From NCBI GenBank assembly GCA_018714085.1, contig DVNY01000054.1:1-44133 (forward strand): a stretch of 44,133 bases of DNA, written 5' to 3'. This document shows positions 7,735 through 40,215 of this stretch, in pieces (position 1 is the first letter of the stretch; every line of letters begins with the position of its first letter). The stretch is from Candidatus Caccomonas pullistercoris. GTDB taxonomy: Bacteria; Bacteroidota; Bacteroidia; Bacteroidales; Bacteroidaceae. A model generated the notes under the pieces. It did no database searches, was not told the origin of the DNA, and saw only the letters and a program-made list of their open reading frames with translations. The position numbers and the translations under genes were made by a program.

Positions 7735-7815
7735 AAACGGTCAGTGAAGTAGCAAATCCTGTCAGCCGGATAGAAATTACAAGTCGGCTGACAAGAAAAA
7801 CGGTCAGCCGACCTC
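7735..7815. repeat. 21-bp phased palindromic repeat, copy B
   Basis: caaatcctgtcagccggatagaaattacaagtcggctgacaagaaaaacggtcagccgacc; gtcggctgac/gtcagccgac inverted repeat. Confidence 0.75.
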
Positions 7816-7850
7816 TAAAACGACATAGGGCATGAGGGAAGCAAGGCTTA

Positions 7851-7935
7851 CTTTTCATAAGACAAGGCGGCACTCGGGAACGTCCTGTCGAAAAACCTGA
7901 GGCTTTTCGCCTGCCGTTCCGCTCGTTTGCACTAT
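7851..7935 (+). repeat. Stem-loop promoter element, copy p1 (first of an 85-bp tandem duplication)
   Basis: Nearly identical to 7936-8020 (two differences seen by eye); the -7 region reads TATCTTTT instead of TATCTTTG. Confidence 0.9.
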
Positions 7936-8025
7936 CTTTTCATAAGACAAGGCGGCACTCGGGAGCGTCCTGTCGAAAAACCTGCGGCTTTTCGCCTGCC
8001 GTTCCGCTCGTTTGCACTATCTTTG
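7936..8025 (+). promoter_or_regulatory. Stem-loop promoter element, copy p2 (second tandem copy, with intact -7 box)
   Basis: ...gttccgctcgtttgcactatctttgc; -7 box TATCTTTG at 8018-8025, 7 bp upstream of ATG 8033. Confidence 0.8.
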
Positions 8026-8032
8026 CGGCGGA

Positions 8033-8929
8033 ATGAGTAAGCTGACCGACTTTTTTATAGAACGGGGGTTCAAGGCGTTGTCGCGCCTTCCGTTCGGCGT
8101 GCTCTACGCCCTTTCAGACATGTGCTTCCCCTTGGTTTACTACATAGGTCGATACCGTCGTGGAGTGGTGCGTACAAATCTCGAAAATTCCTTTCCAGAG
8201 AAGACGGCAGCCGAGCGGAAAAGCATCGAGCGGGACTTCTACCGACGCTTCTGTGACTACGCGGTCGAGACAGTGAAACTCATCAGCATTGATGAAGCGG
8301 ACATACGTCGCCGCATGGAGTTCGTTGGGCTGGACGAGGTGGAAGCACAGCTCGGCAGCCATCCGTTCGTTTTTCTCTACTTGGGCCACGTGTTCAATTG
8401 GGAATGGGTGTCGACCATTCCTATGTGGACCAAGCGTGAGGCAACTCACGGCGCGCAGCTCTACCGTCCGCTGAACAATGCAGCTTTTGACCGTCTTTTC
8501 GAACACCTGCGCACGCGTTTCGGTGCCGAGAACATTTCGAAGTATGACGCTCTGCGGCGCATCATGCGGCTGAAAGCCGAAGGTGTCCCGACGATCATCG
8601 GTTTCATCTCGGACCAAGCGCCTCGCGTTCAGAACATACACGATTGGACTACTTTTCTGAATCAGGACACTCCTGTGTTCACAGGCACTGAACGTATCGG
8701 AAAGAAAGTCGATGCCGCCATCTATTATGTCGACATGGAGCGGGTGAAGCGCGGATACTACCGGGCGACGTTCCGCCTGATGAGCGACGACGTGCGGTCG
8801 GTGCCTGATTATGAACTGACAAACCGCTACATGCAACTGCTTGAACAGACAATCCGTCGCCAACCGGCCGGATGGCTCTGGTCGCATCGACGGTGGAAGC
8901 ACAAGCGACAGCCCGAGACGCAAATTTAG
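8033..8929 (+). CDS. Lipid A biosynthesis (KDO)2 lipid acyltransferase, LpxL/HtrB family
   Basis: MSKLTDFFIERGFKALSRLPFGVLYALSDM...LGHVFNWEW...GFISDQAPR...PAGWLWSHRRWK. Start moved to ATG 8033; the ORF-track start lies in the promoter element. Confidence 0.92.
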   Translation: MSKLTDFFIERGFKALSRLPFGVLYALSDMCFPLVYYIGRYRRGVVRTNLENSFPEKTAAERKSIERDFYRRFCDYAVETVKLISIDEADIRRRMEFVGLDEVEAQLGSHPFVFLYLGHVFNWEWVSTIPMWTKREATHGAQLYRPLNNAAFDRLFEHLRTRFGAENISKYDALRRIMRLKAEGVPTIIGFISDQAPRVQNIHDWTTFLNQDTPVFTGTERIGKKVDAAIYYVDMERVKRGYYRATFRLMSDDVRSVPDYELTNRYMQLLEQTIRRQPAGWLWSHRRWKHKRQPETQI

Positions 8930-8985
8930 CCAAGGGAAGAGACGGAGATGTCGTTCGGAATGCGTATCTTTGCTCTCGGTTTTAC

Positions 8986-9057
8986 GCCTCCGTAGTTCAA
9001 CGGATAGAATAGAAGTTTCCTAAACTTTAGATCCGAGTTCGATTCTCGGCGGAGGTA
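8986..9057 (+). tRNA. tRNA-Arg (anticodon CCU)
   Basis: gcctccg...tagttcaacgga...gaagtttcctaaacttt...ccgagttcgattctcgg cggaggt a; complete cloverleaf, anticodon loop ttCCTaa. Confidence 0.95.
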
Positions 9058-9059
9058 CG

Positions 9060-9093
9060 ACGGGTTTGCCCAAAGAGGGCAAGCCCGTTTTTT
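9060..9093 (+). terminator. Rho-independent terminator after tRNA-Arg
   Basis: acgggtttgccc aaaga gggcaagcccgt ttttt. Confidence 0.9.
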
Positions 9094-9108
9094 GTGCCCG
9101 ACAGTTTT

Positions 9109-9190
9109 AACGGTCAGCGTGTCCGTAAGAACTGAAGTAGTGACCGGAATTTCTGTCGCTACTTCAGTTCTTACGGGTCGCCGACCCGGA
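9109..9190. repeat. 21-bp phased palindromic repeat, copy C, with 22-bp inverted repeat
   Basis: ccgtaagaactgaagtagtgac (9123-9144) / gtcgctacttcagttcttacgg (9155-9176), one G:T pair, 10-nt loop cggaatttct. Confidence 0.8.
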
Positions 9191-9263
9191 AAAAGCACAT
9201 CCCCTGCCCTTGTTCGTGCGATGGAGGCAGGGGATGCGGAAAAGGCAGTAGCCGTTTTGCGGA

Positions 9264-10658
9264 CTACATGGGGATGTTGAAACCTAAGCTGATGTTCGTG
9301 TTGGCACGGTTCAAGGGGATAAAAGGTTTGCCGAATTTTCCCCAGATCATGCGGTCGGAAGCCACGTAGAAGTTGAACTTGTTCACGTAGAAGCTCAACA
9401 TTCCGCCAAGTTGCCAACCGGTGCTCGAACCACTGGTGTTGAGGTTCGCCTCGAACCACTTGACGGGACGGACGGCGGCCGAGAGCATCCCCTGGTGGTA
9501 GGAGTAACGCCCGTGGATGCGTGAAGTGTAGAGGAAACCGACACGGAATTTGTCGTAGAACGGCATCGTGTATTCAGCACCGATGTTGAGCGTAGCGGCG
9601 AGGCCTTGGGTCTTTTTGCCCTTGCCGTCGTCATAGATGGAGAAGACGCGGTTCAAGTCGTCGCCGAGGTTCTCGAACTGGTCGCCGATCTTGTTGCCCT
9701 CGTCGTCGCCGCTGACCCAGATGTCGGTGAATCCGTCGAACGTATATTCGCCGCGCGAACTGGCCATGTTGACATCCTTCCAGCTGATAAAGCCGAGGTC
9801 AGTGATTGAAGCGCTGACCGTCAGGTTGTCCAGTACTTTGTAAGTGGCGCCAAAGTCGAACGCAAGTCCGAAACCGGGAAGCGAGAAGCTGTAATCGTCG
9901 AGTCCGTCGACCTTTCCGCCGCGGTTGGGGTCGATGGTGGCGGGGTCGTTGCTGTCGTCATAGCTGAACTGCGATTTGCCCAGTGCGGCTGCCAGTTTGG
10001 CATCGGCGTTGATGGCCCATTGGTCGCCGGTCATCGTCACGTCCATGTGCTCCACGTTGAAGTCAGCGTATGCCGCTCCGATCAGGAACTTCATCTTGGC
10101 GCCCACTTTCAGGCGGTCGTTGATCTGGTGGGAGTGGCCGAGAGCCAGTTCAAGGTAATTCTGCGTGCGGATGCCGAGGTTGTCGATGCTGTATTGCTCA
10201 CGGGCGCCCGTCTCTTTCATGAATTCGAACAGCTCGTAGGGCATGGTCACGTTGGTGCTTGATTTGAGGTTCAGCTCGACGGAGTTCATTCCCTTGAAAG
10301 CCTGGAAGGCGAACGAGAAGAGGTTGTAGTTCAGATAGATGTCGATTCGGTTCTTGTCGTGCAGGTTGCCGAGAAATTCGCCCGCACTGATCTCGGGATT
10401 CATGAACGTGGTGAGATCGTAGCCCGGGCGATTGCTTTTGTAGACAAAGTCAGCCATGCCGACGTTCCCTGTCGTGCCGATGTTGATGTTATTGAGCAGA
10501 GGAACGCCCACGTAGGCTGAATCGAGCAACGCAGGATTCATCTGATGGCGGTTGACCGACGTTTGCATGAAGTAAGCTGAACGCAGGTCTTGCGCAGCGG
10601 CGCCGGTGGCTGTCGAAGCGAGTAAAAGTGCAGCCGTATATTTAAGGATACCTTTCAT
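9264..10658 (-). CDS. DUF5723-like outer-membrane/secreted protein
   Basis: Signal peptide MKGILKYTAALLLASTATGAAAQ; QTSVNRHQMNPALLDSAYVGVPLLNNINIGTTGNVG; beta-barrel-like C-terminus. Confidence 0.75.
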   Translation of the reverse strand: MKGILKYTAALLLASTATGAAAQDLRSAYFMQTSVNRHQMNPALLDSAYVGVPLLNNINIGTTGNVGMADFVYKSNRPGYDLTTFMNPEISAGEFLGNLHDKNRIDIYLNYNLFSFAFQAFKGMNSVELNLKSSTNVTMPYELFEFMKETGAREQYSIDNLGIRTQNYLELALGHSHQINDRLKVGAKMKFLIGAAYADFNVEHMDVTMTGDQWAINADAKLAAALGKSQFSYDDSNDPATIDPNRGGKVDGLDDYSFSLPGFGLAFDFGATYKVLDNLTVSASITDLGFISWKDVNMASSRGEYTFDGFTDIWVSGDDEGNKIGDQFENLGDDLNRVFSIYDDGKGKKTQGLAATLNIGAEYTMPFYDKFRVGFLYTSRIHGRYSYHQGMLSAAVRPVKWFEANLNTSGSSTGWQLGGMLSFYVNKFNFYVASDRMIWGKFGKPFIPLNRANTNISLGFNIPM

Positions 10659-10680
10659 AATGGAGTGTCAGTCTTAGGGG

Positions 10681-12492
10681 TTAGTTGAAATCGCCGATTA
10701 CTTGTCCCAGGAGTTTCAGACGCAGGTTGTCGAGATAGAAGTACTGGTCTGAGCGCAGTTCGCCGGTGGCCGGGGAGGCTGCGACGATGTGGAAGCGCAG
10801 TTTGTCGAGGCGCGAGATGTCAGCGGGGTTCTGCGCCGTCAGCGTGAGGGTGATGGGCGTCTTCACGGCTGTCGTCCCGTCGCCGGCGGCAATGAGGTCG
10901 GTGGTCACGTCGACGCCGTCGAGCACGCGGCCGTCGATGCCGACGGGCTCAACGCTGATTTCGAGTTGCATGGGAACGAGGTTGTACACGTCGGCAGTGA
11001 TGTCGACTCCCTTGGCTTGGTAGTCTTTCAAATCGTCGTTCATGTCGTCGACCGAGTCGTTGTAGACGATGGTCGTGCCAGCGTTGAAGGTGAACGGGAC
11101 GAGGACTTCATAGTTCACGTCGGCCGAGTAGCTGCGGTCGAGATAGATGTCGTGGAGCACGCCCTGCTTGACGTTGACACGGCCGTCCTTGCAGTCGACT
11201 TGGATGTGGTCCGGAAGTTTCCGGATCAGGCTGTTGAGATCGTTGACAACCTCGACGTGGCTGCCGGCGGCGACGCCGTCGGGATCATAGGGCGTGTCGG
11301 TCTGGCTGTAATAGTAGGTGGAAGTCTGTCCGAAGGGGATGTCGTTCTTGCCGCTTTGCGGGAGGTTGGCGGCGCCGATGGTCTGACCGCCGTCGGCCAC
11401 CGAGGTCACGCTGCCGGAGAACTCGACGGGGACGGGCAGGTTTGTCGCGTCGATGTCAAAGCGGATGGTCGGGTTCTGCATATTGAGCGTCACGCGGTTG
11501 TCGGTGAGGAAGTCGGGCAGGTCGTTGCTGATTTCGATGGGGTCAATCTCCGGGTTAATTTCGGGGTTGACTTCGCCTTGCACACGTTCTGCTTCGATTT
11601 GTCCGCCGCCTTGCAATTCGACAAAGAGGCGCATTTTGACTACGTCGCCGTCGTGCATGGATTGCTCGCGGGTCGAGGTGACGGCGAAGTCGCCGCGCAT
11701 GGTGATGTCGTCGGTGAAATAGATGTAGTGGTTACCCTGTTCGTCGGTTTCGATGGGGAGGCCGAGACCGTCGGAGCCCTCACCGAAATCCAGGTGGTCG
11801 AGGTAGACTTGTCCGAGGACGACCGACTTCGCTCCGATGCCTGACTGGTTGGCGATGTGGAGCACATTGTCTGCATCGGCGTTCAGGATCTTCACGTAGT
11901 CAGGGAACTGGATTTCCATGTTGCGGACACTCTCGATCACGAAGTCGAGGTTGGGATTGCTGGGCGAGACTTCGAGTTTCAGGTCGAAGACGGAGCTTTT
12001 CGGATAAATGGCCCGGAGGCTGTTGATGTCGTCAGAGATGTCGTCGATGTTGGCTTCGAGCGGGCTGGAACCGTCGACGTCGGTTTTCGAGAACTCACGG
12101 CCGGCGGCCACAATGACCGACGAGGCTCCGTCGGGGTTGTCGAAATCTTCGAAGCTCACCACGTCTTGTGAGGAGTTGATTTCGACGTGCTTGATGCTAC
12201 CGATGGCGTTCTTGACGCTGACATCGAAAGACGTATGGTCGGTCTTGACTAAATAATAAAGGTTCTGGCCGTCTGTTTCGACGAGGTCGTTGTCCTCAAT
12301 GTCAAGCACGTCGTTCAGCATGACGTGCTCGGTGTTTCCGAGACGGAGCGAGAGTCCTTCGGCGCCCAAACCAACGGTCATGTCGAACTCTTTGTCAAGG
12401 TCGTACGTGTCGTCGATGCTGCACGACGTCGTCACGCCCGAAGCAAGCGCCATGGCGATGAGGCTTGCGCACAAGTTCATACGTTTGTTCAT
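10681..12492 (-). CDS. Large secreted lipoprotein
   Basis: MNKRMNLCASLIAMALASGVTTSCSIDDTYDLDKEFDMTVGLG (lipobox TTSC). Start set at ATG 12492. Confidence 0.8.
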   Translation of the reverse strand: MNKRMNLCASLIAMALASGVTTSCSIDDTYDLDKEFDMTVGLGAEGLSLRLGNTEHVMLNDVLDIEDNDLVETDGQNLYYLVKTDHTSFDVSVKNAIGSIKHVEINSSQDVVSFEDFDNPDGASSVIVAAGREFSKTDVDGSSPLEANIDDISDDINSLRAIYPKSSVFDLKLEVSPSNPNLDFVIESVRNMEIQFPDYVKILNADADNVLHIANQSGIGAKSVVLGQVYLDHLDFGEGSDGLGLPIETDEQGNHYIYFTDDITMRGDFAVTSTREQSMHDGDVVKMRLFVELQGGGQIEAERVQGEVNPEINPEIDPIEISNDLPDFLTDNRVTLNMQNPTIRFDIDATNLPVPVEFSGSVTSVADGGQTIGAANLPQSGKNDIPFGQTSTYYYSQTDTPYDPDGVAAGSHVEVVNDLNSLIRKLPDHIQVDCKDGRVNVKQGVLHDIYLDRSYSADVNYEVLVPFTFNAGTTIVYNDSVDDMNDDLKDYQAKGVDITADVYNLVPMQLEISVEPVGIDGRVLDGVDVTTDLIAAGDGTTAVKTPITLTLTAQNPADISRLDKLRFHIVAASPATGELRSDQYFYLDNLRLKLLGQVIGDFN

Positions 12493-12578
12493 TGCGTTTG
12501 TTTTAAGTGGTGGTTGATATGAAATAAGTGTGACTGTTTCACCTTTGTCTGAAAGTGGGAAAACATTCCCTAACGCCA

Positions 12579-12586
12579 CAAAAGTA
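12579..12586 (-). promoter_or_regulatory. Bacteroidetes-type -7 box (TACTTTTG) upstream of the lipoprotein gene
   Basis: caaaagta on + strand, 87 bp from the start codon. Confidence 0.5.
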
Positions 12587-12748
12587 ATAATAATTAAGCT
12601 AATGAACGTTATAAATCCGGTGATTTGTAATCTTAATGTAAGGAATGATTGAAAATGTGACAGTATCCGTCACGGAAAACAGTGAGCAGGAAAATATGAA
12701 CAGTCGTGTCGGAACGCAGGTCGGGCGGTCGCTCTCAACGGTCAGGGT

Positions 12749-12845
12749 GACGAAAAATCCTGTCAGCCGTCCAGAATTTTTCGGACGGCTGACAGGATTT
12801 TCTAAATAACTGACAGGTTTTTCTGGACGGCTGACAGGAAAGCCG
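12749..12845. repeat. 21-bp phased palindromic repeat, copy D
   Basis: aaaatcctgtcagccgtcc / ggacggctgacaggatttt 19-bp perfect inverted repeat, followed by gacagg motifs at 12791, 12812 and 12833 (exact 21-bp spacing). Confidence 0.9.
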
Positions 12846-12867
12846 TTTCCTTTTCCAGAATAAAAGA

Positions 12868-12913
12868 GCGCCCCGCCGGCCGCTGCGACTGCGCAGGCTG
12901 GCCGGCGGGGCGC
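12868..12913 (-). terminator. Terminator downstream of murI
   Basis: gcgccccgccggcc / ggccggcggggcgc 14-bp arms; T-rich tcttttatt follows on - strand. Confidence 0.85.
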
Positions 12914-12931
12914 ATTGTGTGGATTGTCGGG

Positions 12932-13786
12932 TCAGGGTTGGACGCGTTCGGCCTCGCAGGGCTCGTGCATGAAAAGCGTGGCCGATTCGGCGAACTTGTC
13001 GGCCGCTTCTGTCGTGAGGTAGTGGCAGTGCCCCCCCTTGGTGCATTGGGCGTCCATCTCGGGGTGACGCTGGAAATAGTCGCGCAACGAAGAGGCCACG
13101 TATTCCCCTTGCGGCACGATGCGCACGCCGGGCGGCGTGTATTTCAGTATTTTGTTCATCAGTAGCGGGTAGTGCGTGCAGGCCAGCACGAGGGTGTCGA
13201 TTTCCGGGTCGGCGCGCAGGATGCCTTCGACACGTTTACGCACGAAGTAGTCTGCGCCGGGCGAATCGAACTCGTAGTTCTCCACAAGGGGCACCCACAT
13301 CGGGCAGGCCATCTGGCTGACGGTGATGTCGGGATAAAGTTTGTGGATTTCCAGCTCGTAGGATCGCGAGTTCACCGTACCGGCCGTGGCGAGTATACCG
13401 ACGTGGCGCGTCCGCGTCAGGCTGCCGAGGGTTTCGACCGTCGGTCGGATCACGCCGAGCACGCGGCGCGTGGGGTCGAGCCGGCCGAGGTCGTTTTGCT
13501 GGATAGTGCGCAGAGCTTTGGCCGAAGCGGTGTTGCAGGCCAGCACGACGAGGTGGCAGCCGCGGGCAAAGAGCAGTTCGACAGCCTGCCTGGTGTATTC
13601 ATAGACCACTTCGAACGAATGTGCACCATAGGGCGCCCGTGCGTTGTCGCCGAGATACAGGTAATCGTAGGCCGGCATCAGCTGGCGGATTTGGCGCAGG
13701 ATGGTGAGCCCGCCGTAGCCCGAGTCGAACACACCGACTGGACCCGGCGTTGCGGGAAGCGTGAGCGGTTGATCGGGCGGGGTCAT
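12932..13786 (-). CDS. murI: Glutamate racemase
   Basis: PVGVFDSGYGGLTILRQIRQLMP...LACNTASAKALR...LACTHYPLL. Confidence 0.96.
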   Translation of the reverse strand: MTPPDQPLTLPATPGPVGVFDSGYGGLTILRQIRQLMPAYDYLYLGDNARAPYGAHSFEVVYEYTRQAVELLFARGCHLVVLACNTASAKALRTIQQNDLGRLDPTRRVLGVIRPTVETLGSLTRTRHVGILATAGTVNSRSYELEIHKLYPDITVSQMACPMWVPLVENYEFDSPGADYFVRKRVEGILRADPEIDTLVLACTHYPLLMNKILKYTPPGVRIVPQGEYVASSLRDYFQRHPEMDAQCTKGGHCHYLTTEAADKFAESATLFMHEPCEAERVQP

Positions 13787-14394
13787 GGTCTCAGTTTGTT
13801 CAGCTGTGTGCGGACGTAGGGCGCTGCGTCTTCTGACAGCAAGGGGTTGTAGTAAGGGCAGGCGCCCCGGTCGGTGTTGATGATGAAGTCATAGCCTCTT
13901 TCGGCGCCGGCAGCGCGGATAGCGGCGTCGAGGCGCGAACGCACGGGACCCATGAGGTCGGCCTCGGCTGCACGGAGCAGGCTGTCGGCTTGCTCCCGGA
14001 AGGCAAGGTCACGCTCCATCTCGTTTTGCAGGTCGCGCTGGCGTTTGAGCAGGATGCTTTTCGGGAAGTTTTTCTGGCCGTCGAGGAATTCCGCAAAGAG
14101 GCGTTTGAAGTTGCTGGCGTTGTATTCAGCTTCTTCCTCGTACTGTTGGCGGAGCCGGCTCAGGCTTTCGAGGGCACGGACATACTCCGGCATGGCCGTG
14201 AGCAGGGAATCGTAGCTCAGCACGCCGTAGCGGGGACGGGCGATGAGGGTGTCAGGAGTTGTGTTGAGCCCGTTTGCTGCGGCGGGTTGTGCGCCGGACG
14301 GTGTGGCCACTTGGGCACGGGCGCCGGCCAGACAGCCTGAAACGGCCAGCACGGCCACCAGGCAAATGTGTCGGTACAGGTAGGAAAAACGCAT
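13783..14394 (-). CDS. OmpH/Skp family periplasmic chaperone-like protein
   Basis: RYGVLSYDSLLTAMPEYVRALESLSRLRQQYEEEAEYNASNFKRLFAEF; signal peptide. Start moved to ATG 14394; the upstream MHYLC extension is promoter DNA. Confidence 0.82.
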   Translation of the reverse strand: MRFSYLYRHICLVAVLAVSGCLAGARAQVATPSGAQPAAANGLNTTPDTLIARPRYGVLSYDSLLTAMPEYVRALESLSRLRQQYEEEAEYNASNFKRLFAEFLDGQKNFPKSILLKRQRDLQNEMERDLAFREQADSLLRAAEADLMGPVRSRLDAAIRAAGAERGYDFIINTDRGACPYYNPLLSEDAAPYVRTQLNKLRP

Positions 14395-14413
14395 CGTTTG
14401 TTTCTGTTTGCTG

Positions 14414-14488
14414 CAAAGGTAGTGCAAACAAGCGGAAAGGCCCGCGAAAAACCGGATGATTTTCGCTGACCTTTCCCGAGTGCTGCCG
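14414..14488 (-). promoter_or_regulatory. Stem-loop promoter element, copy p4 (upstream of ompH-like gene)
   Basis: Reverse complement: cggcagcactcgggaaaggtcagcgaaaatcatccggtttttcgcgggcctttccgcttgtttgcactacctttg; -7 box TACCTTTG at 14414-14421. Confidence 0.75.
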
Positions 14489-14545
14489 TTATTTTTTGCA
14501 GTGGTAATGTTTTTTCCCGGAGTGTTCCCGGGTTTCCCTACTTGC

Positions 14546-16207: not shown

Positions 16208-16417
16208 AGACGTAGGGTTTAGGCGGACCGGCGCAGTCGCGGAGGCGGCGGGTGCCGGTTTTGTTCGGTTTCCCCAAAGTTGAGGAAAAAAGTCGGACCG
16301 TACCGCGTCTGCCGTCGACTTTAACGTTTTTTACTTTGCAGGCGTCCGCTCTGCGCGGCGGGCTGGCCTACAGGTTGTTTGGCGGACTCGTGCCAGCAGG
16401 CCGGCGACCAGGAAATG

Positions 16418-16570
16418 CGAGACGGCTGACAGAATTTTCTAAATAACTGACAGGATTTTCTGGACGGCTGGCAGGAATTACGGGTCGCCGGCCTGTTCGG
16501 ACGGATGGTGTGCGGGTCGGAAACAGCCAGAGCGACAGGAACTCCTGTCGCTCTGGCTGAAACATCTGTC
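16418..16570. repeat. 21-bp phased palindromic repeat, copy E (two modules)
   Basis: gacggctgacagaattttctaaataactgacaggattttctggacggctggcagg (three 21-mers) and cagccagagcgacagg/cctgtcgctctggctg inverted repeat (16524-16559). Confidence 0.88.
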
Positions 16571-16614
16571 GTATATGGTGGCCGTACGATGCGGATGGCC
16601 TGATCAGGCGGGCA

Positions 16615-19393
<2,779 letters not shown>

Positions 19394-20424: not shown

Positions 20425-20540
20425 TGTTTGGGGGCGACCCCTGCCCTACCCTGTCGTTTTCCCGTGCTGCGAGTGTCTCCGCGTGCGGGATTTTTCGTTT
20501 CGGGCGGCAATGGTGTCGCTCCTACGCGACGGCGGGTTTT

Positions 20541-20635
20541 CTCAGTCAGAGCGACAGAAAATCCTATCGCACTGACAGAATTTTCTGTCAGCCGTCCCGT
20601 TTTTCTTAGTCGCCGACTTGTGTTTTCTGTCAGGC
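20541..20635. repeat. 21-bp phased palindromic repeat, copy F
   Basis: gcgacagaaaatcctatcgcactgacagaattttctgtcagccgtcccg; gacag at 20552 and 20573; ctgacagaa tt ttctgtcag perfect palindrome. Confidence 0.8.
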
Positions 20636-20683
20636 TGCGTGCGTTTTGCGTGTCGGCTCATGAAGCCTGCGAGATGGGACACG

Positions 20684-20750: not shown

Positions 20751-24803
<4,053 letters not shown>

Positions 24804-24873: not shown

Positions 24874-25100
24874 CGAACAACGTCGCGCAAAACGCCTGTT
24901 TTTTCCGAAAAAATGACAAGTCCGGCGGTTTTTCGGGGACAGGATGTGGATTGTCCCGGAGCAGCGGTTGGTCTCTCTCCCACCCGATCCGTTCTGCTCG
25001 CCCGGCTTCCGGCGGGCTGCCACGGGGCGGACGGAACGCCGTCCGGAGCGAAGGCTCACCTTGTCGCAGTGGTGGAAAAGTAAGAATGACTGGTGGGAAT

Positions 25101-25178
25101 CACGGGATGGCTGACAGTTTTTACGGGTCGGCTGACAGAAATTCCTGTCAGCCGGATAGGAATTTCTGGACGGCTGGG
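25101..25178. repeat. 21-bp phased palindromic repeat, copy G
   Basis: ctgacag at 25111 and 25132 (21 bp apart); ggctgacag aaattc ctgtcagcc inverted repeat. Confidence 0.85.
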
Positions 25179-29669: not shown

Positions 29670-29701
29670 AATTACTATTTTTGTTTAACGTATTGTAGCG
29701 G

Positions 29702-30711: not shown

Positions 30712-30721
30712 GGCGAGCGGC

Positions 30722-31825
<1,104 letters not shown>

Positions 31826-31959
31826 TGTGTGTATGTTGTATTGTTTTGTTGTCTTTTGCAGGGTGCCGTGTGGCGGTAGCCTTCGGCCGTCCGGCGCTTT
31901 GAGGGGTGGGGGATGCCTCTTCGGTTTTCCGGCCTGTGCGCCCGTTTGTCCTGTCGCGG

Positions 31960-32050
31960 TGTCAGGCTTTTTCCCGACGGCTGACAGAAATTTCTGGACG
32001 GCTGACTGAAAATCCTGTCAGCCGTCTGGGGTTTCCTGTCACTGCTCCCG
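31960..32050. repeat. 21-bp phased palindromic repeat, copy H (overlaps the folK-GNAT stop codon)
   Basis: tgtcaggctttttcccgacgg|ctgacagaaatttctggacgg|ctgactgaaaatcctgtcagc|cgtctgggg. Confidence 0.85.
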
Positions 32051-33022
32051 TTTTTCCGCTGTCGCCACGGCTGTCCAGCGTGTCAGGGAGTCGCCTTTGA
32101 TCTGGTAGGTGTTGGTTTCCCGCAGGGTGAATCCCATCTTTCTGTAAAGGGCGTTGGCGGCCTTGCGTGCCGGGCGCGAGGTCAGTTCGAGGCTTTGGAT
32201 GCCGGCGGCGGCTGCGTGGGCCAGTGTGTTGGCCATGAGCCTTTTGCCGAGTCCTTTTCCGCGGTGGACGGCGTCGACTACAACGTCCTCCACGTGGCCT
32301 TTCAGGCCGGTGAGCTGGGGTGTGGTCAGGAGTGAGGCCATCCCTATGAGTCTTCCTTCGGCGTTGCTGAGGGCGAGCAGGCAGAGCGCCTCCTCTTTGA
32401 GCAGTGTGCGGAGCCCTTCGGTCTGCCATGGCTGGCGGCCGGGGCTGAGCTGGGCGAGCAGGCGGTTGATCTCGGCGGTCAGTCGTGGTGTCACGTCGTC
32501 CGCTCTCAGGCGGCGGCAGGGCCGCGGGGCGGTGTGGGGCAGGCGCATGGCTTCCGTCGAGTCGCACCGGCTGGCCAATTCGGCGTAGGTCTGTCCTGTG
32601 CCCGCGTGGCGCAGTCCGCCGGCAATTTCGGCCAGCGGCAGGAGTACGAAAGCCCGTTCCGTCATTCGTGGGTGGGGCAGGGTGAGCGACGGGGTGTCGG
32701 TCTTCACGTCGTCCCAGGCCAGGAGGTCGATGTCAATGGGGCGGTCGGCGTAGTGGCCGCCGTGGCTTTTCTGCGTGCGGCCAAGCAGGCGTTCGACCTG
32801 GCGGCAGCAGGCAAAAGCCTCGGCCAGCGGCAGGTTGCAGGTGAAGCGGGCGGCACAGTTGAGGAAGCGGTGGCCTGATGCGAAACCGACAGGGTCGCTC
32901 TCATAACAGTCCGAGACGATGCCCTCGCCCCCCAGCGCCAGGGCGAGCAGGTCGCAGGCCGTGGCGAGTGTAGTGGCGCGGAGACCCAGGTTCGAGCCGA
33001 GTGAGAGTAGAAGGGTGGGCAT
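32039..33022 (-). CDS. folK: Fusion: 2-amino-4-hydroxy-6-hydroxymethyldihydropteridine pyrophosphokinase (FolK) + GNAT N-acetyltransferase
   Basis: N-terminus MPTLLLSLGSNLGLRATTLATACDLL...YADRPIDIDLLAWDD...LPHPRMTERAFVLLPLAEIA (HPPK); C-terminus VEDVVVDAVHRGKGLGKRLMANTLAHAAAAGIQSLELTSRPARKAANALYRKMGF (GNAT). Confidence 0.9.
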   Translation of the reverse strand: MPTLLLSLGSNLGLRATTLATACDLLALALGGEGIVSDCYESDPVGFASGHRFLNCAARFTCNLPLAEAFACCRQVERLLGRTQKSHGGHYADRPIDIDLLAWDDVKTDTPSLTLPHPRMTERAFVLLPLAEIAGGLRHAGTGQTYAELASRCDSTEAMRLPHTAPRPCRRLRADDVTPRLTAEINRLLAQLSPGRQPWQTEGLRTLLKEEALCLLALSNAEGRLIGMASLLTTPQLTGLKGHVEDVVVDAVHRGKGLGKRLMANTLAHAAAAGIQSLELTSRPARKAANALYRKMGFTLRETNTYQIKGDSLTRWTAVATAEKREQ

Positions 33023-33030
33023 GGCGTCGG

Positions 33031-34083
33031 TCAGTCGACAATGAGCATCACGTCGCCGTAGGGGCCGAACTGGTAGTCCTCTTTCAGGGCCACGTCGTAG
33101 GCCGCCATGGTCTGCTCGTAGCCTCCAAAGGCAGAGGTGAGCATCAGGAGGGTCGAGTAGGGGAGGTGGAAGTTAGAGAGCATAGCGTCGGCCACGGAGA
33201 ATTCGTAGGGCGGAAAGATGAACTTATTGGTCCATCCTTCGAACTCTTTGATGCGTTTGTCTGTGCCTACGCAGGCTTCGAGCGCCCGTTGTACCGTTGT
33301 CCCGACCGCCACGATCTTGTGTTCGTTGTCTTTGGCGCGGTTGACGATCTGGCAGCACGTCGCGTCGACGTGCATCTCCTCGCTGTCCATCTTGTGCTTC
33401 GTGAGGTCCTCGACGTCTGTCGTGCGGAAATTGCCCAGTCCGCAGTGCATCGTGAGGAACGCGAAATCGATGCCCTTTATCTCCATGCGTTTCATCAGTT
33501 CCCGCGAGAAGTGCAGTCCGGCCGTCGGAGCCGTCACGGCGCCTTCGTGGCGGGCGAAGATGCACTGGAAGCGTTCCAGGTCCTCCGGTTCAGACTCCCG
33601 GCCGATGAAGCGGGGGATCGGAGCCTCGCCGAGGGCATAGAGCTGGCGCTTGAATTCGTCATGGTCTCCGTCGTAGAGGAAACGGAGCGTGCGGCCGCGG
33701 CTCGTGGTGTTGTCGATGACTTCCGCCACGATGGAGTTGTCTTCGCCGAAATAGAGTTTGTTGCCGATGCGTATCTTGCGGGCCGGGTCTACCAGTACGT
33801 CCCAAAGACGCAGTTCCTGGTTCAGCTCGCGCAGCAGGAACACTTCGATGCGCGCGCCGGTCTTTTCCTTGTTTCCATAGAGGCGGGCGGGAAACACCTT
33901 GGTATCATTGAAGACGAAGACGTCGTGTTCGTCAAACATGTTCAGTATTTCCTTGAACATGTGATGCTCTATCTCGCCTGTCTTGCGGTGCAGCACCATC
34001 ATGCGGCACTCGTCGCGGTGTGGCGCGGGATACTTTGCGATTTTCTCCTCAGGCAGTTTGAATTTGAATTGCGACAGCTTCAT
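33031..34083 (-). CDS. queA: S-adenosylmethionine:tRNA ribosyltransferase-isomerase
   Basis: [40 protein letters not shown]...[22 protein letters not shown]. Confidence 0.96.
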
Positions 34084-34107
34084 AATGTCTATATGCTTGT
34101 TTGTTTT

Positions 34108-34815
34108 TTACGTCGTTGTGTCTGTCGGACGGGGCAGGGATTCGATCCATTGCGTCGCCTCGTCGAGTGTCATGCAGTCTTCGACGCGGTATTCGCCCAC
34201 CCGTGTGCGGCGCAATGCGGTCAGATGGGCGCCGCTCCCGAGGGCTTGCCCGATGTCGCGGGCCAGTGCCCGGATGTACGTCCCCTTCCCGCAGACCACG
34301 CGGATGTCGATCTCGTCGGGCAGCCGGCATCCTGTGAGCTCGATCTCGTCGATGCGGATGAGCTTGGCACGCAGGGGGACGTCCTCGCCCTTGCGTGCCA
34401 TTTTGTAGGCACGCTTTCCCTCTATTTTGCAGGCCGAGAAAGCGGGCGGCACCTGCTCGATGTTTCCTTCGAAACGGCGGAGCGCCTCACGGACAGCTTC
34501 CTCGGTGATGTGGGCAGTGGGATAGGTGGCGTCGATGCCGTGTTCGAGGTCGAAACTCGGCGTCGTGGCGCCCAGCCGCAGGGTAGCCGTGTATTCTTTG
34601 GTCTGTGCTTGGAGTTCGTCGATGCGCTTGGTGGCTTTCCCGGTGCAGAGCAGGACGACGCCAGTGGCCAGCGGGTCGAGCGTGCCGGCGTGTCCCACTT
34701 TGATCTTGCGGCCCAAGTGTTGCGTAAGCAGCCATCTCACCTTCGCCACAAGGCCGAAGGATGTCCATTCGTAGGGCTTGTCGATGGCGAGTATCTCTCC
34801 CTCCAAGAAGTCCAT
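34108..34815 (-). CDS. truB: tRNA pseudouridine(55) synthase
   Basis: LAIDKPYEWTSFGLVAKVRWLL...KVGHAGTLDPLATGVVLLCTGKATK. Confidence 0.96.
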   Translation of the reverse strand: MDFLEGEILAIDKPYEWTSFGLVAKVRWLLTQHLGRKIKVGHAGTLDPLATGVVLLCTGKATKRIDELQAQTKEYTATLRLGATTPSFDLEHGIDATYPTAHITEEAVREALRRFEGNIEQVPPAFSACKIEGKRAYKMARKGEDVPLRAKLIRIDEIELTGCRLPDEIDIRVVCGKGTYIRALARDIGQALGSGAHLTALRRTRVGEYRVEDCMTLDEATQWIESLPRPTDTTT

Positions 34816-34824
34816 GCGTCCGGT

Positions 34825-35664
34825 TTATTCCAAAGTGAGTTCGTAGCCCAGGGCGGCCATGATGAGAATCGCGGCGCCGACGATGATGCGATACCATCCG
34901 AAGGCGACGAAACCGTATTTGGCGACGTAGTTGATGAAGAACTTGATGGCCAAGATGGCGACGACGAATGCCACCACGCAACCGACGAGGAGCAGGCTCA
35001 GGTTATCGCCCTGCGTGAGGATATTACCTTCGTCGTGGCTCATCAGTTTGTAGAGTTCGAGGCACGTGGCGCCGAACATCGTCGGCACGGCGAGGAAGAA
35101 CGAGAACTCGGCGGCGGCCTTGCGTGTCAGTTTTTGCGCCATGCCGCCTACTATTGTGGCCATGGAGCGCGATACGCCCGGGATCATGGAAATACATTGG
35201 AAACATCCGATCAGGAAGGCGCGTTTCAGTGTCATGGGAGTCTGTTCGGACGAATGGCTGAACAGACGGTCGCAGAACAACATGAACACGCCGCCCACTA
35301 TGAGCATCACGGCTACGAGCATGACGTTGTCGAGGTTCGATTCGATGAAATCGTTGAACGCCAGTCCAAGCACGACGGCCGGCAACACGCCGACGATCAG
35401 GCGCAGGTAGAAGCGCCAGATGGCCTGCCACCAGGTGTAGCCTTTGGTCTGCATGGTTTCCGGGTAGAAGAACTTGCGCCAATAGAGGCAGATGACGGAG
35501 AGGATGGCGCCGAACTGGATAATTACGGTAAAGGCTTTGAGGAACGGGGTGCTCTCCATGCCGAGCAGGCCTTGGGTGATGATCATGTGGCCCGTCGAGG
35601 AAACGGGGAGGAATTCCGTGAGGCCTTCGACGATGGCAATGATGATGGATTCAATCCAAGTCAT
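34825..35664 (-). CDS. uppP: Undecaprenyl-diphosphatase (BacA/UppP)
   Basis: IIIAIVEGLTEFLPVSSTGHMII...MIPGVSRSMATIVGGM. Confidence 0.96.
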   Translation of the reverse strand: MTWIESIIIAIVEGLTEFLPVSSTGHMIITQGLLGMESTPFLKAFTVIIQFGAILSVICLYWRKFFYPETMQTKGYTWWQAIWRFYLRLIVGVLPAVVLGLAFNDFIESNLDNVMLVAVMLIVGGVFMLFCDRLFSHSSEQTPMTLKRAFLIGCFQCISMIPGVSRSMATIVGGMAQKLTRKAAAEFSFFLAVPTMFGATCLELYKLMSHDEGNILTQGDNLSLLLVGCVVAFVVAILAIKFFINYVAKYGFVAFGWYRIIVGAAILIMAALGYELTLE

Positions 35665-35680
35665 GAGTTTTCAGTATGGT

Positions 35681-35935
35681 TTAGTTGTTCTGTTCGTCGT
35701 GGTTTGCGTTTTTGTCAGCGGGCCGACGCAGGATGCCGTAAATCATGAAGAGGAATCCGAACAGGCAGACCGCCGGGGCTACCTTTATTCGGCGTGTGCT
35801 GAATATGTCGGGGTTGAAAACTGTCTCGGTCGAGCCGGGGCCTGACATAAGGATGAAACCGACGATGACGGCGATCATGCCTGCGGCGAGCAGGATGAAG
35901 TTCGTGCGGTCGAATGCGAAATTTCTTCTGTCCAT
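35681..35935 (-). CDS. DUF3098-like small membrane protein
   Basis: FAFDRTNFILLAAGMIAVIVGFILMSGPGSTETVFNPDIFSTRRIKVAPAVCLFGFLFMIYGIL; between ftsX and uppP. Confidence 0.8.
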   Translation of the reverse strand: MDRRNFAFDRTNFILLAAGMIAVIVGFILMSGPGSTETVFNPDIFSTRRIKVAPAVCLFGFLFMIYGILRRPADKNANHDEQNN

Positions 35936-35992
35936 ACGATTGATTTTGTTTGTTGGCTGAGGGGGATGTGGGGTGGCGCTTCTCTTCCGGCG

Positions 35993-36865
35993 TCAGCTGA
36001 CGTAGACTTGCGCGGTGTCCATGCGCAGGTGTTTGTTGACCGAGAAGAAGGCGCACACAAGGGTGAGCAGGATGCCGCAGACGGCGACGACGCCCATGGT
36101 GCCTGCCCACACGACGGTGTCGATAAGGCCGGCCAGCGCCGGGTCCCAGTCGAGCAGGAGCATGATGCCGCCTGCAAGGAGCCCGTCGGCGAGCACAGCC
36201 GACACCACGCCGATCCAGAAAGCGCGCGCCATGAAAGGCCTGCGGATGAAACTGCGGCGCGCACCGACCATTTTCATCGTGTGGATGGTGAAACGGCGTG
36301 AATAGATGTTCAGGCGCATCGTGTTGTTGATCAGTGAGAACGAGACGAACGCCAGCAGCACGGCGACCACGAGGAGCACCAAGCTGATTTGACGGATGTT
36401 GTGGTTGACGTTGTCCATAAGGTCTTTCTGATACACAACGTCGATCACCTCGTTCCGGCCGGAGAGGGCGGGGATGTGGCGGCTGAGGCTGTCGTTGTTG
36501 GCGTAGTCCGCCTTCAAATGGATTTCGAACGAGGCGGGGATGGGGCTTGTGCCGAGGAACTCGGCGGGGTCGGTGCCCAGTGCTTCGGCCTGTTCGCGTG
36601 TGGCGGCTTCCTTCGAAGTGTAATCCACACGGCGCACGTAGGGCAGCCGGCAGAGCTCGGCTTGCAGGCGACGCGTCTGGGCGGCGTCGACGCTGTCCGA
36701 AAGCATCACCTGGATGGTGAAGTTTTCCCTGACGGTGCGGCCCAAGTTGGCTGCTGTCGTGACGAAGAACACCACGATGCCAAGCAGAATGAGCACCAGC
36801 GTAGTGCTGATGCACGACGTGACGGTGTTGAACACGCCCCGGCTGTGTCTCTTTCTTTTCTTCAT
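35993..36865 (-). CDS. ftsX: Cell division protein FtsX (permease)
   Basis: Four TM segments; RRLQAELCRLPYVRRVDYTSKEAATREQAEALGTDPAEFLGTSPIPASFEIHLK; MKMVGARRSFIRRPFMARAFWIG. Confidence 0.9.
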   Translation of the reverse strand: MKKRKRHSRGVFNTVTSCISTTLVLILLGIVVFFVTTAANLGRTVRENFTIQVMLSDSVDAAQTRRLQAELCRLPYVRRVDYTSKEAATREQAEALGTDPAEFLGTSPIPASFEIHLKADYANNDSLSRHIPALSGRNEVIDVVYQKDLMDNVNHNIRQISLVLLVVAVLLAFVSFSLINNTMRLNIYSRRFTIHTMKMVGARRSFIRRPFMARAFWIGVVSAVLADGLLAGGIMLLLDWDPALAGLIDTVVWAGTMGVVAVCGILLTLVCAFFSVNKHLRMDTAQVYVS

Positions 36866-36918
36866 GATTCTAACGCCTGGCGCACTGCCCGACGGCTCTT
36901 AATTTGGCTAAATTGCTA

Positions 36919-36926
36919 CAAAAGTA
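36919..36926 (-). promoter_or_regulatory. -7 box TACTTTTG (ftsX cluster promoter)
   Basis: caaaagta on + strand, 53 bp upstream of ftsX ATG. Confidence 0.55.
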
Positions 36927-37085
36927 GTACATTAAATAACGCAAGCCCTGATAATTTAGCACTTTTAACGTTTTCGGTGTCCTGCCTGCACTTGCAGTGA
37001 GGCATGGAGCGGCCGGCCGAAGCGCTTCCGGACAGCCGCTAACCTCCGTTCGCAGAACTGCAACAGCAGGGTGGCTCGTGGGATT

Positions 37086-37170
37086 TCCTGTTGGCCGACC
37101 TGTAATTTTCAGACGGCTGACAGGAAATCCTAAATAACTGACAGGATTTACGGGACGGCTGACCGGGAAA
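37086..37170. repeat. 21-bp phased palindromic repeat, copy I
   Basis: cgacctgtaattttcagacgg|ctgacaggaaatcctaaataa|ctgacaggatttacgggacgg|ctgaccgggaaaacgg. Confidence 0.88.
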
Positions 37171-37281
37171 ACGGTAGCCGCAGCCCGGCGGACGGCGTCG
37201 ACGCCCGTGGTTCGGACAGACCTGTCCGCCGTCGCAACTGCTATGGCGGGGTGGGGTGGTGGCTGCCTCGAAAAAAATGAC

Positions 37282-37289
37282 TACCTTTG
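37282..37289 (+). promoter_or_regulatory. -7 box TACCTTTG (miaB promoter)
   Basis: acTACCTTTGccc 18 bp upstream of ATG 37308. Confidence 0.6.
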
Positions 37290-37307
37290 CCCGGAAATCT
37301 CAAAGGC

Positions 37308-38672
37308 ATGAAGAAACTCCACATAGAAACCTACGGTTGCCAGATGAACGTGGCCGACAGCGAGGTTGTCGCTTCGGTGATGCGTATGGCGGGCTATGAG
37401 CCCTGCGAGACCGAGGCGGAAGCCGACGCCGTCTTCCTGAACACATGTTCAGTGCGCGACAACGCCGAACAGAAGATCCTGCACCGCCTTGAATCCCTGA
37501 CAGCCCAGCGCCGCAAGGGGCGCCGGCTCATCATCGGCGTGCTGGGCTGCATGGCCGAGCGTGTCAAGGACGACCTCCTCAACCGCTATGGCGCCGACCT
37601 CGTCGCCGGTCCCGACGCTTACCTGTCCCTGCCCGACCTTGTGGCTCAGGCGGAGAACGGCCAGAAGGCCATCAACATTGAGCTCTCGACCACGGAGACC
37701 TATCGCGACGTCGTCCCCGAGCGCTACTGCGGCAGCCGCCTCTCGGGCTTTGTGAGCATCATGCGCGGTTGCAACAATTTCTGCCACTACTGCATCGTGC
37801 CTTACACCCGCGGACGCGAGCGTTCGCGCGACATCAGCAGCATCCTCGCCGAGGTGCACGACCTTGAAGCCCGCGGTTACCGCGAAGTCACCCTGCTCGG
37901 GCAGAACGTCAATTCCTACCGTTGGGTGTCGGATCAAGGGGAGGAGGTCGGTTTTCCCGAACTGTTGCGCCGCGTGGCCAGGGCGGTGCCGTCGATGCGC
38001 GTAAGGTTCACCACGTCACATCCTAAGGACATGAGCGACGAGACCCTGCACGTCATTGCGGACGAACCGAACGTCTGCCGCCACATCCACCTTCCGGTGC
38101 AGAGTGGCTCCGACCGGATTCTCAAGCTGATGAACCGGAAATACACCCGGGCATGGTACATGGACCGCATCGCCGCCATCCGCCGCATCGTGCCCGACTG
38201 TGGTCTCTCGACCGATATCTTCGCCGGCTATTGCTCCGAGACGGAAGACGACCACCGCCAGACCCTCTCGCTCATGGAGGAGTGCGGCTACGATTCGGCC
38301 TTCCTCTTCAAATACAGCGAGCGCCCCGGCACCTATGCAGCCCGCCACCTGCCCGACGATGTGCCGGAGGATGTCAAGGTGCGCCGGCTCGAAGAGCTCA
38401 TCGCCCTGCAAAACCGCCTGAGTGCCGAGAGCAACCAGCGCTGCATAGGGCACACGTTCGAGGTGCTGGCTGAGGGAGTGAGCAAACGCTCACGCGACCA
38501 GCTCTTCGGCCGCACGGAGCAGAACAAGGTAGTGGTCTTCGACCGTGGGTCGCACCGCCCGGGCGACTACGTCCGCCTGCGCATCACCGCGGCGTCGTCC
38601 GCCACACTTCATGGTGTCGAGCCGGACAGCGCCGAAAGCTTACCACAGGACGGCCCGGCGGAAAATGATTAA
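37308..38672 (+). CDS. miaB: tRNA-2-methylthio-N6-dimethylallyladenosine synthase
   Basis: MKKLHIETYGCQMNVADSEVVASVM...FVSIMRGCNNFCHYCIVPYTRGRERSR (radical SAM CxxxCxxC); TRAM domain. Start at ATG 37308. Confidence 0.96.
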   Translation: MKKLHIETYGCQMNVADSEVVASVMRMAGYEPCETEAEADAVFLNTCSVRDNAEQKILHRLESLTAQRRKGRRLIIGVLGCMAERVKDDLLNRYGADLVAGPDAYLSLPDLVAQAENGQKAINIELSTTETYRDVVPERYCGSRLSGFVSIMRGCNNFCHYCIVPYTRGRERSRDISSILAEVHDLEARGYREVTLLGQNVNSYRWVSDQGEEVGFPELLRRVARAVPSMRVRFTTSHPKDMSDETLHVIADEPNVCRHIHLPVQSGSDRILKLMNRKYTRAWYMDRIAAIRRIVPDCGLSTDIFAGYCSETEDDHRQTLSLMEECGYDSAFLFKYSERPGTYAARHLPDDVPEDVKVRRLEELIALQNRLSAESNQRCIGHTFEVLAEGVSKRSRDQLFGRTEQNKVVVFDRGSHRPGDYVRLRITAASSATLHGVEPDSAESLPQDGPAEND

Positions 38673-38691
38673 CCAACAAACTCTTAACGCA

Positions 38692-39879
38692 ATGAATATC
38701 CAAGGCAAAGTACACTACGTCGGCGTCAACGACCGCGTGAAGCACCGCTTCGAGGGGCTTTGGCTCCTACCGCAGGGCGTGTCGTACAACTCGTATCTCA
38801 TCGACGACGAGAAAGTCGCCCTCATCGATACGGTCGACGTCGCCTTCTTCACTGAATATCTCGATAACATCCGCGCCGTCATCGGCGACCGCCCCATTGA
38901 TTATCTCGTCATCAATCACATGGAGCCCGACCACTCCGGCTCGATTGCGCTCATCCGCAAGTATTATCCCGGAGTTCGCCTCGTGGGTAACAAAAAGACA
39001 TTCGAGATGGTCGAGGGCTTCTATGGCGTGCCGACCGGCGACGATCTCGTCGTGGCCGAGGGCGACAGCCTCCCGCTGGGCCACCACCGGTTGCGTTTCC
39101 ACCTTGTCCCGATGCTCCATTGGCCCGAGACGATGGTCAGCTACGACGAGACGGAGCACATCCTCTTTTCGGGCGACGCTTTCGGCTGCTTCGGCGCGCT
39201 CAACGGCAACGTCGTCGACGAGCAGATGGACACCGCGCCCTACTGGCCGGAGATGGAGCGCTACTATGCCGCCATCCTCGGCAAGTTCTCGCCCATGGTG
39301 AAGCGCGCATTGGCCAAGTTGGGCGGTTTGCAGATAGACATGATCTGTTCGACGCACGGCCCGGTGTGGAAGAAAGAGGTGGCGCGCGCCGTCGGCGTAT
39401 ATGACCGCATGAGCCGCGGCGTGACGGAGCCGGGTGTCGTTGTTTGCTACGGCTCAATGTACGGAAACACGCAACGTGTGGCCGAAGCTGTCGCCGCGGG
39501 GGCTGCCGAAGCCGGGTTGCGCAAAGTCATCGTGCACAACCTCTCCGTCTCGCAGCCGTCGTTTGTGCTGGCCGACATTTTCCGTTACAGCGGTCTGGCC
39601 ATCGGCGGGCCGACCTATAACGGCGGACTCTTCCCTGTGGTCGAAGACCTGCTTCGCCGTTTGGCCGGGCGCGAGGTCAGCGGCCACAAACTGGCTTATT
39701 TCGGTGGCTTCACCTGGGCCAGTGCAGCCTGCAAGACCGTTGCGCATTATAATGAGCAGATGAAGATGGACCTCGTGGCTGATCCTGTGGAATGGAAGCA
39801 GGGTGCCGGCGCTGCGACGCTCGATGCCGCCCGCGCCATGGGGCGGCGGTTGGCCGAGGCCGTGTTGTCGGCCGATTGA
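38692..39879 (+). CDS. FprA family A-type flavoprotein (flavodiiron protein)
   Basis: MNIQGKVHYVGVNDRVKHRFEGLWLLPQGVSYNSYLIDDEKVALIDTVD...INHMEPDHSGS...VVCYGSMYGNTQRVAEAVAAGA. ATG 38665 is an alternative start overlapping the miaB stop. Confidence 0.93.
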   Translation: MNIQGKVHYVGVNDRVKHRFEGLWLLPQGVSYNSYLIDDEKVALIDTVDVAFFTEYLDNIRAVIGDRPIDYLVINHMEPDHSGSIALIRKYYPGVRLVGNKKTFEMVEGFYGVPTGDDLVVAEGDSLPLGHHRLRFHLVPMLHWPETMVSYDETEHILFSGDAFGCFGALNGNVVDEQMDTAPYWPEMERYYAAILGKFSPMVKRALAKLGGLQIDMICSTHGPVWKKEVARAVGVYDRMSRGVTEPGVVVCYGSMYGNTQRVAEAVAAGAAEAGLRKVIVHNLSVSQPSFVLADIFRYSGLAIGGPTYNGGLFPVVEDLLRRLAGREVSGHKLAYFGGFTWASAACKTVAHYNEQMKMDLVADPVEWKQGAGAATLDAARAMGRRLAEAVLSAD

Positions 39880-39901
39880 CCAGCGGACTGCGACGCATCG
39901 T

Positions 39902-39947
39902 TATGCGAGGAGGCACTCTCCCGGCCGGGGGAGTGCCTCCTCGCATA
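39902..39947. terminator. Terminator-like hairpin downstream of the flavoprotein gene
   Basis: tatgcgaggaggcactctccc ggcc gggggagtgcctcctcgcata, 21-bp arms with one wobble; no T-tract. Confidence 0.6.
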
Positions 39948-39957
39948 CGGTCGCGAT

Positions 39958-40084
39958 GGGCTGAATGCCGCACGCTGACTCCCGAAAGCGCTTTCAGCGA
40001 GTGGGGAACATGCTCGCGGATTTGCGCACACCTGTGCAGAGTTTTGCACGTTTTGTGCAACGCTTCGCGTTCGGCATTCAGCCC
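39958..40084. other. 127-bp structured element closed by an 18-bp inverted repeat (candidate ncRNA or MITE-like element)
   Basis: gggctgaatgccgcacgc (39958-39975) / gcgttcggcattcagccc (40067-40084), 17/18 complementary; internal gcacacctgtgc and ttgcacgttttgtgcaa hairpins. Confidence 0.5.
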
Positions 40085-40149
40085 CGGCGCACACCGTGCG
40101 TGTGCAAGCATCGTGGCTGGATGAGGATAGAGTATGGAGACTTAGAATT

Positions 40150-40215
40150 TACGGTTGCTGTGATAGTAAAAACGAACGCACTGATAGTTTTTACGGTCAG
40201 TGTGTTCGTTTTTGT
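40150..40215. repeat. Palindromic repeat J (divergent family member or bidirectional terminator)
   Basis: aaaaacgaacgcactga (40168-40184) / tcagtgtgttcgttttt (40197-40213), one G:T pair; located between convergent genes. Confidence 0.6.

Follow-up and report, generated by a model that had tools for sequence, protein, structure and literature searches.

How a family of DNA repeats is to be recognised when related species share its spacing and not its sequence is the question raised by a 44,133-nt stretch of the Candidatus Caccomonas pullistercoris genome (Bacteroidales; contig DVNY01000054.1, positions 1 to 44,133, forward strand), referred to here as the window. The initial annotation of the window described about ten loci (A to J) of contiguous 21-bp palindromic units, one of them inside ispG, and extrapolated to hundreds of copies in the genome. 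Its overall interpretation is partly supported by the present analysis and is extended beyond the single genome, as the words of the units are species-specific and their architecture is common to the genus and, at a period of 22 bp, to the family. Repeat families are usually recognised via a common sequence, whereas sister species here keep the geometry of the arrays and not the sequence, so that sequence-based repeat finders would call the family of each species unrelated or overlook it.

Copy number and anatomy of the arrays

The genome that holds the window (G000) is a metagenome-assembled genome (MAG) of 2.15 Mb in 181 contigs with 86.5% completeness, and the statistics are based on 296 kb of it (the window plus stretches L001-L020) together with whole-genome searches. 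A cyclic 21-state hidden Markov model (HMM) trained on the 296 kb called 68 elements of 50-158 nt, compared with a single 30-nt segment in the reversed sequence used as control, and 64 of the 68 were free of indels. A word-free pattern, consisting of three G-N-W4-N-C spacers at 21 bp, matched these stretches 77 times and their reversed control not once (0), with 0-2 matches at any other spacing from 16 to 29, which bears out the exact phase claimed by the initial annotation. The core word CGGCTGACAG occurs 341 times genome-wide, versus 10 times with its letters reversed. As the 296-kb stretches were picked around matches, element totals were scaled by their share of the whole-genome matches, which is ~26% (90/341 for the core word, 77/301 for the pattern); the assembled genome would accordingly hold ~260 elements, in agreement with the extrapolated hundreds.

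Each unit is composed of a 15-bp near-palindromic block and a 6-bp A/T-rich spacer (GAAATC, AAAATC, GAAAAA and AAATTC, for example) in strict 21-bp register. The blocks start with C and end with G (96% each), their consensus skeleton is self-complementary, and they may be divided into a 5-bp core flanked by two 5-bp arms; the cores AGCCG and ACTGC, like the arms CTGTC, CGGGA, CGGTC and CTATC, recur in either orientation. Units are present in both orientations, as had been noted before, and dyads are centred on the spacer and on the block alike.

Across loci, 13.2% of unit pairs match at ≥13/15 positions versus 0.7% under column independence, which shows that whole words, and not single columns, are passed on. 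Within an array, non-adjacent units reach this level about as rarely as units taken from different arrays (14.0% versus 13.2%), thus the arrays are mosaics of a species vocabulary; adjacent units are somewhat above the different-array value, at 23.5%.

Shared geometry and species-specific words

The exact word CGGCTGACAG showed no enrichment in 12 sampled congeners or in 188 other family members. The word-free 21-bp pattern, in contrast to its reversed control, was abundant in a screen of 58 congeners (counts given as pattern/control), including G234 (451/9), G215 (259/13), G209 (195/10), G242 (127/1), G229 (116/6), G142 (104/16), G207 (98/22), G237 (85/9), G236 (63/1), G243 (62/1), G221 (50/8) and others, with words that differ by species among the matches listed. 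At least 12 of 57 congeners carry dispersed 15+6 arrays in their own words. The closest relative found, G234 (IspG identity 81%), has elements of this architecture with CTATCGCAGCGATAG and CTGTCGTAGTACTTG among their words. Another G234 word, CGTAGTACTTG, was counted 229 times in its own genome, 0 times in G000 and at most 14 times elsewhere in the genus. A skeleton pattern over two blocks (CnGnCnG...) was dropped from the screens, since it resembles the base composition of GC-rich congeners too closely.

An exact direct-repeat spectrum, which is likewise independent of words, peaked at 21 (110), 42 (58) and 63 (40) in 681 kb of 25 other congeners, where most other multiples of three gave ~22. 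In 20 other genera of the family, the top period was 22 and no 21 peak was seen. The 22-bp pattern was strong in some of these, namely G086 (202/8), G087 (57/0) and G136 (52/0), and with reversed polarity in G008 (1/33) and G058 (0/24); these arrays consist of 16-bp blocks and 6-bp A/T spacers, as in CAATCTCAGCCAAACG attttt CATTCGGCTGAGATTG (L142) and GTTTGACGACCCAAAC aatatt GTTTCGTCCGTCGAAC (L151). The architecture is therefore common to the genus at 21 bp and to the family at 22 bp, and the vocabulary is replaced between species. The initial annotation had left open whether 21 bp stands for two helical turns or seven codons. As the copies are mostly intergenic and the 22 bp of the family relatives is not a multiple of three, the invariant is two helical turns, and seven codons as the primary constraint can be set aside.

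Outside the family, a sample of 78 other families of the order, with one genome apiece, gave no comparable dispersed 21-bp excess; the top scorers, G461 and G469, resemble local tandem or coding repeats among the matches listed. The two-block pattern had zero matches in IMG/VR viral contigs. One exact two-block match in a gammaproteobacterial MAG (JASHSR010000236.1, L021:2800-2827) is possibly due to chance or contamination.

Several congeners display array forms of their own. In G128 (L113:9964-10414), an 11-unit 21-bp array is directly followed by a 10-unit 22-bp array within a 2.7-kb gene-free stretch, the two using unrelated words (CTATGGGAAGGCTAG+6 and CTAGGTGCGCTCCTAG+6). G221 (L110:193-481) bears a thirteen-unit 22-bp palindromic array of the GAAGTACCGGCCGCTGGCACTC type close to a contig end. 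A reversed-polarity pattern (C...W4...G), in which the spacer is flanked by C/G and not G/C, is strongly in excess in G015, G210 and G301 as well as in L073, so that for G015 and G210 the excess falls in the reversed-polarity control rather than in the forward pattern. The G015 arrays consist of the block CTGTCGGCCGACAG and AATAAGG in alternation, and their period is still 21 bp.

Genomic sites, gain and inversion

In total, 11 array segments were called in the window, and loci A to J are all present where the initial annotation had placed them, as ten of these sites with E in two pieces:

Array A, 1553-1692 (+): in frame inside ispG (open reading frame 563-2521, +); HMM, IspG alignment and NCBIfam IspG match.
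Array B, 7731-7813: intergenic, four units; HMM.
Array C, 9096-9194: intergenic, with the partly inverted pair CTGAAGTAGTGACCG / CTGTCGCTACTTCAG; HMM.
Array D, 12737-12841: intergenic, between 10681-12492 (-) and the glutamate racemase gene 12932-13732 (-); HMM, Tandem Repeats Finder (period 21) and NCBIfam.
Array E1, 16397-16497: intergenic; HMM and Tandem Repeats Finder (period 21).
Array E2, 16521-16570: short piece with the perfect inverted pair CAGCCAGAGCGACAG / CTGTCGCTCTGGCTG; HMM.
Array F, 20536-20638: intergenic, convergent gap; HMM and gene context.
Array G, 25096-25176: intergenic; HMM.
Array H, 31922-32058: intergenic, extending to the 3' end of a folK-like gene (32039-33022, -), with the phase broken by one indel; HMM and NCBIfam.
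Array I, 37081-37176: divergent gap upstream of miaB (37287-38672, +); HMM, context and NCBIfam.
Array J, 40144-40213: convergent gap before a polyprenyl synthase gene (40291-41268, -); HMM and NCBIfam.

A tRNA gene (8986-9057, +) followed by a strong terminator-like hairpin (9059-9089) lies just before array C. The window also contains a second dispersed repeat, AGTGCAAACGAGCGGAA...TTTGC(A)CTATCTTTGC, at 7851-8020 (an 85-bp tandem duplicate with 98% identity), at 6889-6980 (inverted at 6898-6980) and at 14398-14465; we take it to resemble a Bacteroidetes promoter region (TTTG / TAnnTTTG).

With gene calls from our own simple hexamer-based caller, 36 of the 43 intergenic gaps longer than 300 nt carry an array, consistent with the earlier remark that most longer intergenic regions do so. 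Tandem gaps hold 25 of the elements, divergent gaps 16 and convergent gaps 15, and 8 lie within genes; the genes concerned include those for a protein kinase and an ArgC-like protein as well as ispG, aroA, rho and uppS. Of the eight in-gene copies in the 296 kb, seven share a codon phase and encode peptides such as AVTENPVSRP; stops are nearly all confined to one of the three frames of the elements, and the mean number of open frames per element is 3.33 versus 1.99 in shuffles. The proposal that the element keeps reading frame thus holds, though this property looks secondary. In IspG, AroA, Rho, UppS and ArgC, the in-frame copies add peptide segments to core enzymes. The window IspG, which matches the long-form IspG model of NCBIfam in keeping with its Bacteroidales assignment, has 35 additional residues (105 nt, five units) that are absent in 27 congeners, and at that position G234 IspG has 21 (three units, 63 nt, in G234 words), either from a single old insertion rewritten in each lineage or from two insertions into one tolerant linker. 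AroA has ~27 additional residues that most congeners lack, and the linker they occupy is variable in itself.

Comparison of sister species revealed gain at new sites. Among conserved neighbour gene pairs, 0/3 intergenic arrays are common to G000 and G234. The gap of array H measures 213 nt in G000 versus 115 nt in G234 and that of array J 411 nt versus 93 nt, the array being absent from G234 in both cases, and another gap is 200 nt in G000 versus 17-20 nt in G234, G209 and G215. The sisters G209 and G215 (median protein identity 93%) have 11 array sites in common and differ at up to five, one or two of which are apparently spurious. At the common sites, the identity of the arrays is 0.80 versus 0.65 for the flanks, and at three orthologous sites the central block of one sister reads, exactly or nearly so, as the reverse complement of its counterpart. 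Hence the elements are gained at new sites, in-frame protein sites included, and their central block inverts between sisters. Intergenic flanks were too diverged between species to align when empty-site alignment for target-site duplications was attempted.

One common site of G209 and G215 (L063:19385-19496, L067:2138-2225) uses other words, TGGCAAGGCCTGCCA / TGGCAAGCACTGCCA, which suggests a second vocabulary within the same genomes.

Candidate explanations and known repeat systems

The explanation put forward here, at about even odds, is that the arrays are non-autonomous palindromic repeats, dispersed over the genome and belonging to one superfamily, which act as DNA and are read by a putative fast-evolving DNA-binding protein or recombinase. 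A sequence-specific dimeric protein of either kind would read the blocks along one face of the helix, copying together with the inversion or exchange of units at the A/T spacers would account for the spread and uniformity of the elements, and reader and words would co-evolve with fast turnover. Insertion would otherwise be random, and copies inside genes would have survived where they were tolerated, given that 21 bp preserves the frame and that two of the three frames are nearly stop-free. In favour of this explanation stand the phase and copy number, an architecture common to many species in different words, the exclusivity of each vocabulary, the mosaic order, the gained sites, the central inversions and the higher identity of arrays than of flanks between G209 and G215; the frequency of divergent gaps, the lack of covariation beyond the vocabulary in G000 and the lack of a terminator signal favour DNA over RNA. 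The system offers a natural series of more than 12 species with equal spacing and different words, in which the reader, the change of words at hundreds of loci and the mobility of the DNA become testable.

Several observations weigh against this explanation. Neither a reader protein nor a transposase nor a recombinase was identified. Near-identical young copies are lacking in G000 (best pair 0.94, 99.9th percentile 0.84), which fits poorly with recent copy-and-paste. In tandem gaps, 22/25 arrays sit nearer to the stop codon of the upstream gene, as expected of elements of the 3' untranslated region (3'-UTR), and the G209 and G215 elements are long palindromes whose outer arms covary between sites, as an RNA hairpin also predicts. 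The central inversion can moreover arise without an enzyme, via a cruciform or template switching.

Among the rivals, an unlikely one holds that the arrays are host-functional binding sites for nucleoid or chromosome organisation or global regulation, i.e. selected fixed sites for a cooperative dimer phased at two turns, with words that converged instead of being copied. Symmetric blocks along a single helical face, a mosaic of units that look independent, the greater conservation of arrays than of flanks between sisters and the occupancy of nearly all long intergenic gaps agree with it. Inheritance of whole words instead of independent columns, however, favours copying, the high turnover of sites between G000 and G234 is at odds with fixed positions, and in-frame insertions in enzymes are difficult to read as regulatory sites.

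Slightly less probable again is a role at the RNA level, in which each species has amplified its own hairpin as a bidirectional terminator or 3'-UTR stability element. To the stop-codon proximity and the covarying arms, this rival adds the A-tracts at the left end and T-tracts at the right end of many elements. Divergent gaps, on the other hand, are about as frequent as convergent ones, variable positions in G000 show no complementarity across spacer or block dyads beyond that given by the vocabulary, T-runs are not enriched just outside the elements, Rfam gave zero family matches in the window, and a fixed period of 21/22 bp is unexpected for RNA. In a test built on E. coli-style terminators, matches were not above shuffles and none coincided with an array; canonical terminators, with a T-run after a GC stem, thus found no support. 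RNA processing, one of the functions suggested initially, is consequently not favoured.

Mutation alone, through minisatellite slippage and quasi-palindrome template switching with no reader, is improbable: it accommodates the central inversions and the slightly greater similarity of adjacent than of distant units, and leaves unexplained the common vocabulary of the genome, the fixed 6-bp A/T spacer and the recurrence of an equal period with unrelated words in many species. The least probable rival is REP/BIME-type mobilisation by a RAYT (Y1 transposase), which would suit short, high-copy extragenic palindromes with species-specific sequences, since Y1_Tnp (PF01797) has no match in G000 at its 86.5% completeness or in the array-rich G234, G242, G229, G142, G236 and G243, its presence in the genus is unrelated to array number, divergent gaps are not avoided, and no GTAG, CGTC or GGAG tag is invariant across species (CGTC in 78% of G000 elements versus 6-33% in G234, G209 and G215; GTAG in 6% versus 58-76%).

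Turning from these rivals to known systems, CRISPR arrays were rejected, as their direct repeats are identical and set apart by unique spacers of similar length, whereas here varied palindromic units follow one another contiguously with linkers of 6 bp A/T. In the phase-variable invertible elements of Bacteroidales, a segment inverts between short inverted repeats; inversion likewise occurs in the present arrays, but what inverts is a block of 15 bp, and the loci number in the hundreds. Rickettsia palindromic elements (RPEs; Ogata 2002 and Claverie and Ogata 2003, cited in PMC3733652 and PMC10969869) are palindromic repeats that, like the arrays here, lie between genes and in frame within unrelated housekeeping proteins. 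Their length is ~150 bp (PMC10969869). An RPE is not known to comprise more than a single palindrome; a phased, mosaic 21-bp unit and the wholesale replacement of words between sister species set the arrays apart.

REP, BIME and REPIN sequences with RAYTs are known from Enterobacteria and Pseudomonas, in GTAG- and CGTC-tagged families (PMC3733652). They resemble the arrays as small extragenic palindromes of high copy number, often grouped and with species-dependent sequence, and the arrays differ from REP/BIME in the strict 21/22-bp phasing of tandem units set apart by 6-bp A/T spacers, their many words per genome in mosaic order, the lack of a constant tag and, in G000, of a RAYT, and their acceptance of divergent gaps. 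Closer by host is BrickBuilt of Porphyromonas gingivalis, a miniature inverted-repeat transposable element (MITE) with contiguous 23-nt tandem repeats at dispersed intergenic sites, which has a leader and a tail, IS5-like terminal inverted repeats, 19 copies, exclusively intergenic locations and one repeat sequence (PMC4596501). A Bacteroidales host and short contiguous tandem repeats at dispersed intergenic sites are shared with the arrays, and none of the other features applies to them. A BrickBuilt- or MITE-like build with IS-type terminal inverted repeats and a conserved leader and tail was rejected, as k-mers held in common by the outward flanks were not above control; the earlier view that the family is not a standard MITE is supported.

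Literature on dispersed palindromic repeats in Bacteroidetes, Prevotella or Bacteroidales yielded, in a search largely confined to openly accessible papers, nothing beyond BrickBuilt, surveys of REPs in general and mitochondrial repeats of no relation. Species-specific words on a constant spacing point to an undescribed, fast-evolving DNA-repeat system, and it is tentatively suggested that the arrays represent a categorically new class of genome-wide DNA element within a single bacterial family, that of two-turn-phased palindrome arrays whose architecture is inherited and whose whole vocabulary is rewritten in each species. This would imply that a fast-evolving sequence-specific reader or recombinase is active at several hundred sites and rewrites even the in-frame copies within proteins. 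REP/BIME, which along with RPE had been named from the start as the nearest conceptual parallels, RPE itself and BrickBuilt are only analogues of the arrays: the first shares their high copy number and species-dependent palindromes, the second their in-frame copies in housekeeping proteins, and the third their contiguous tandem build in a Bacteroidales host.

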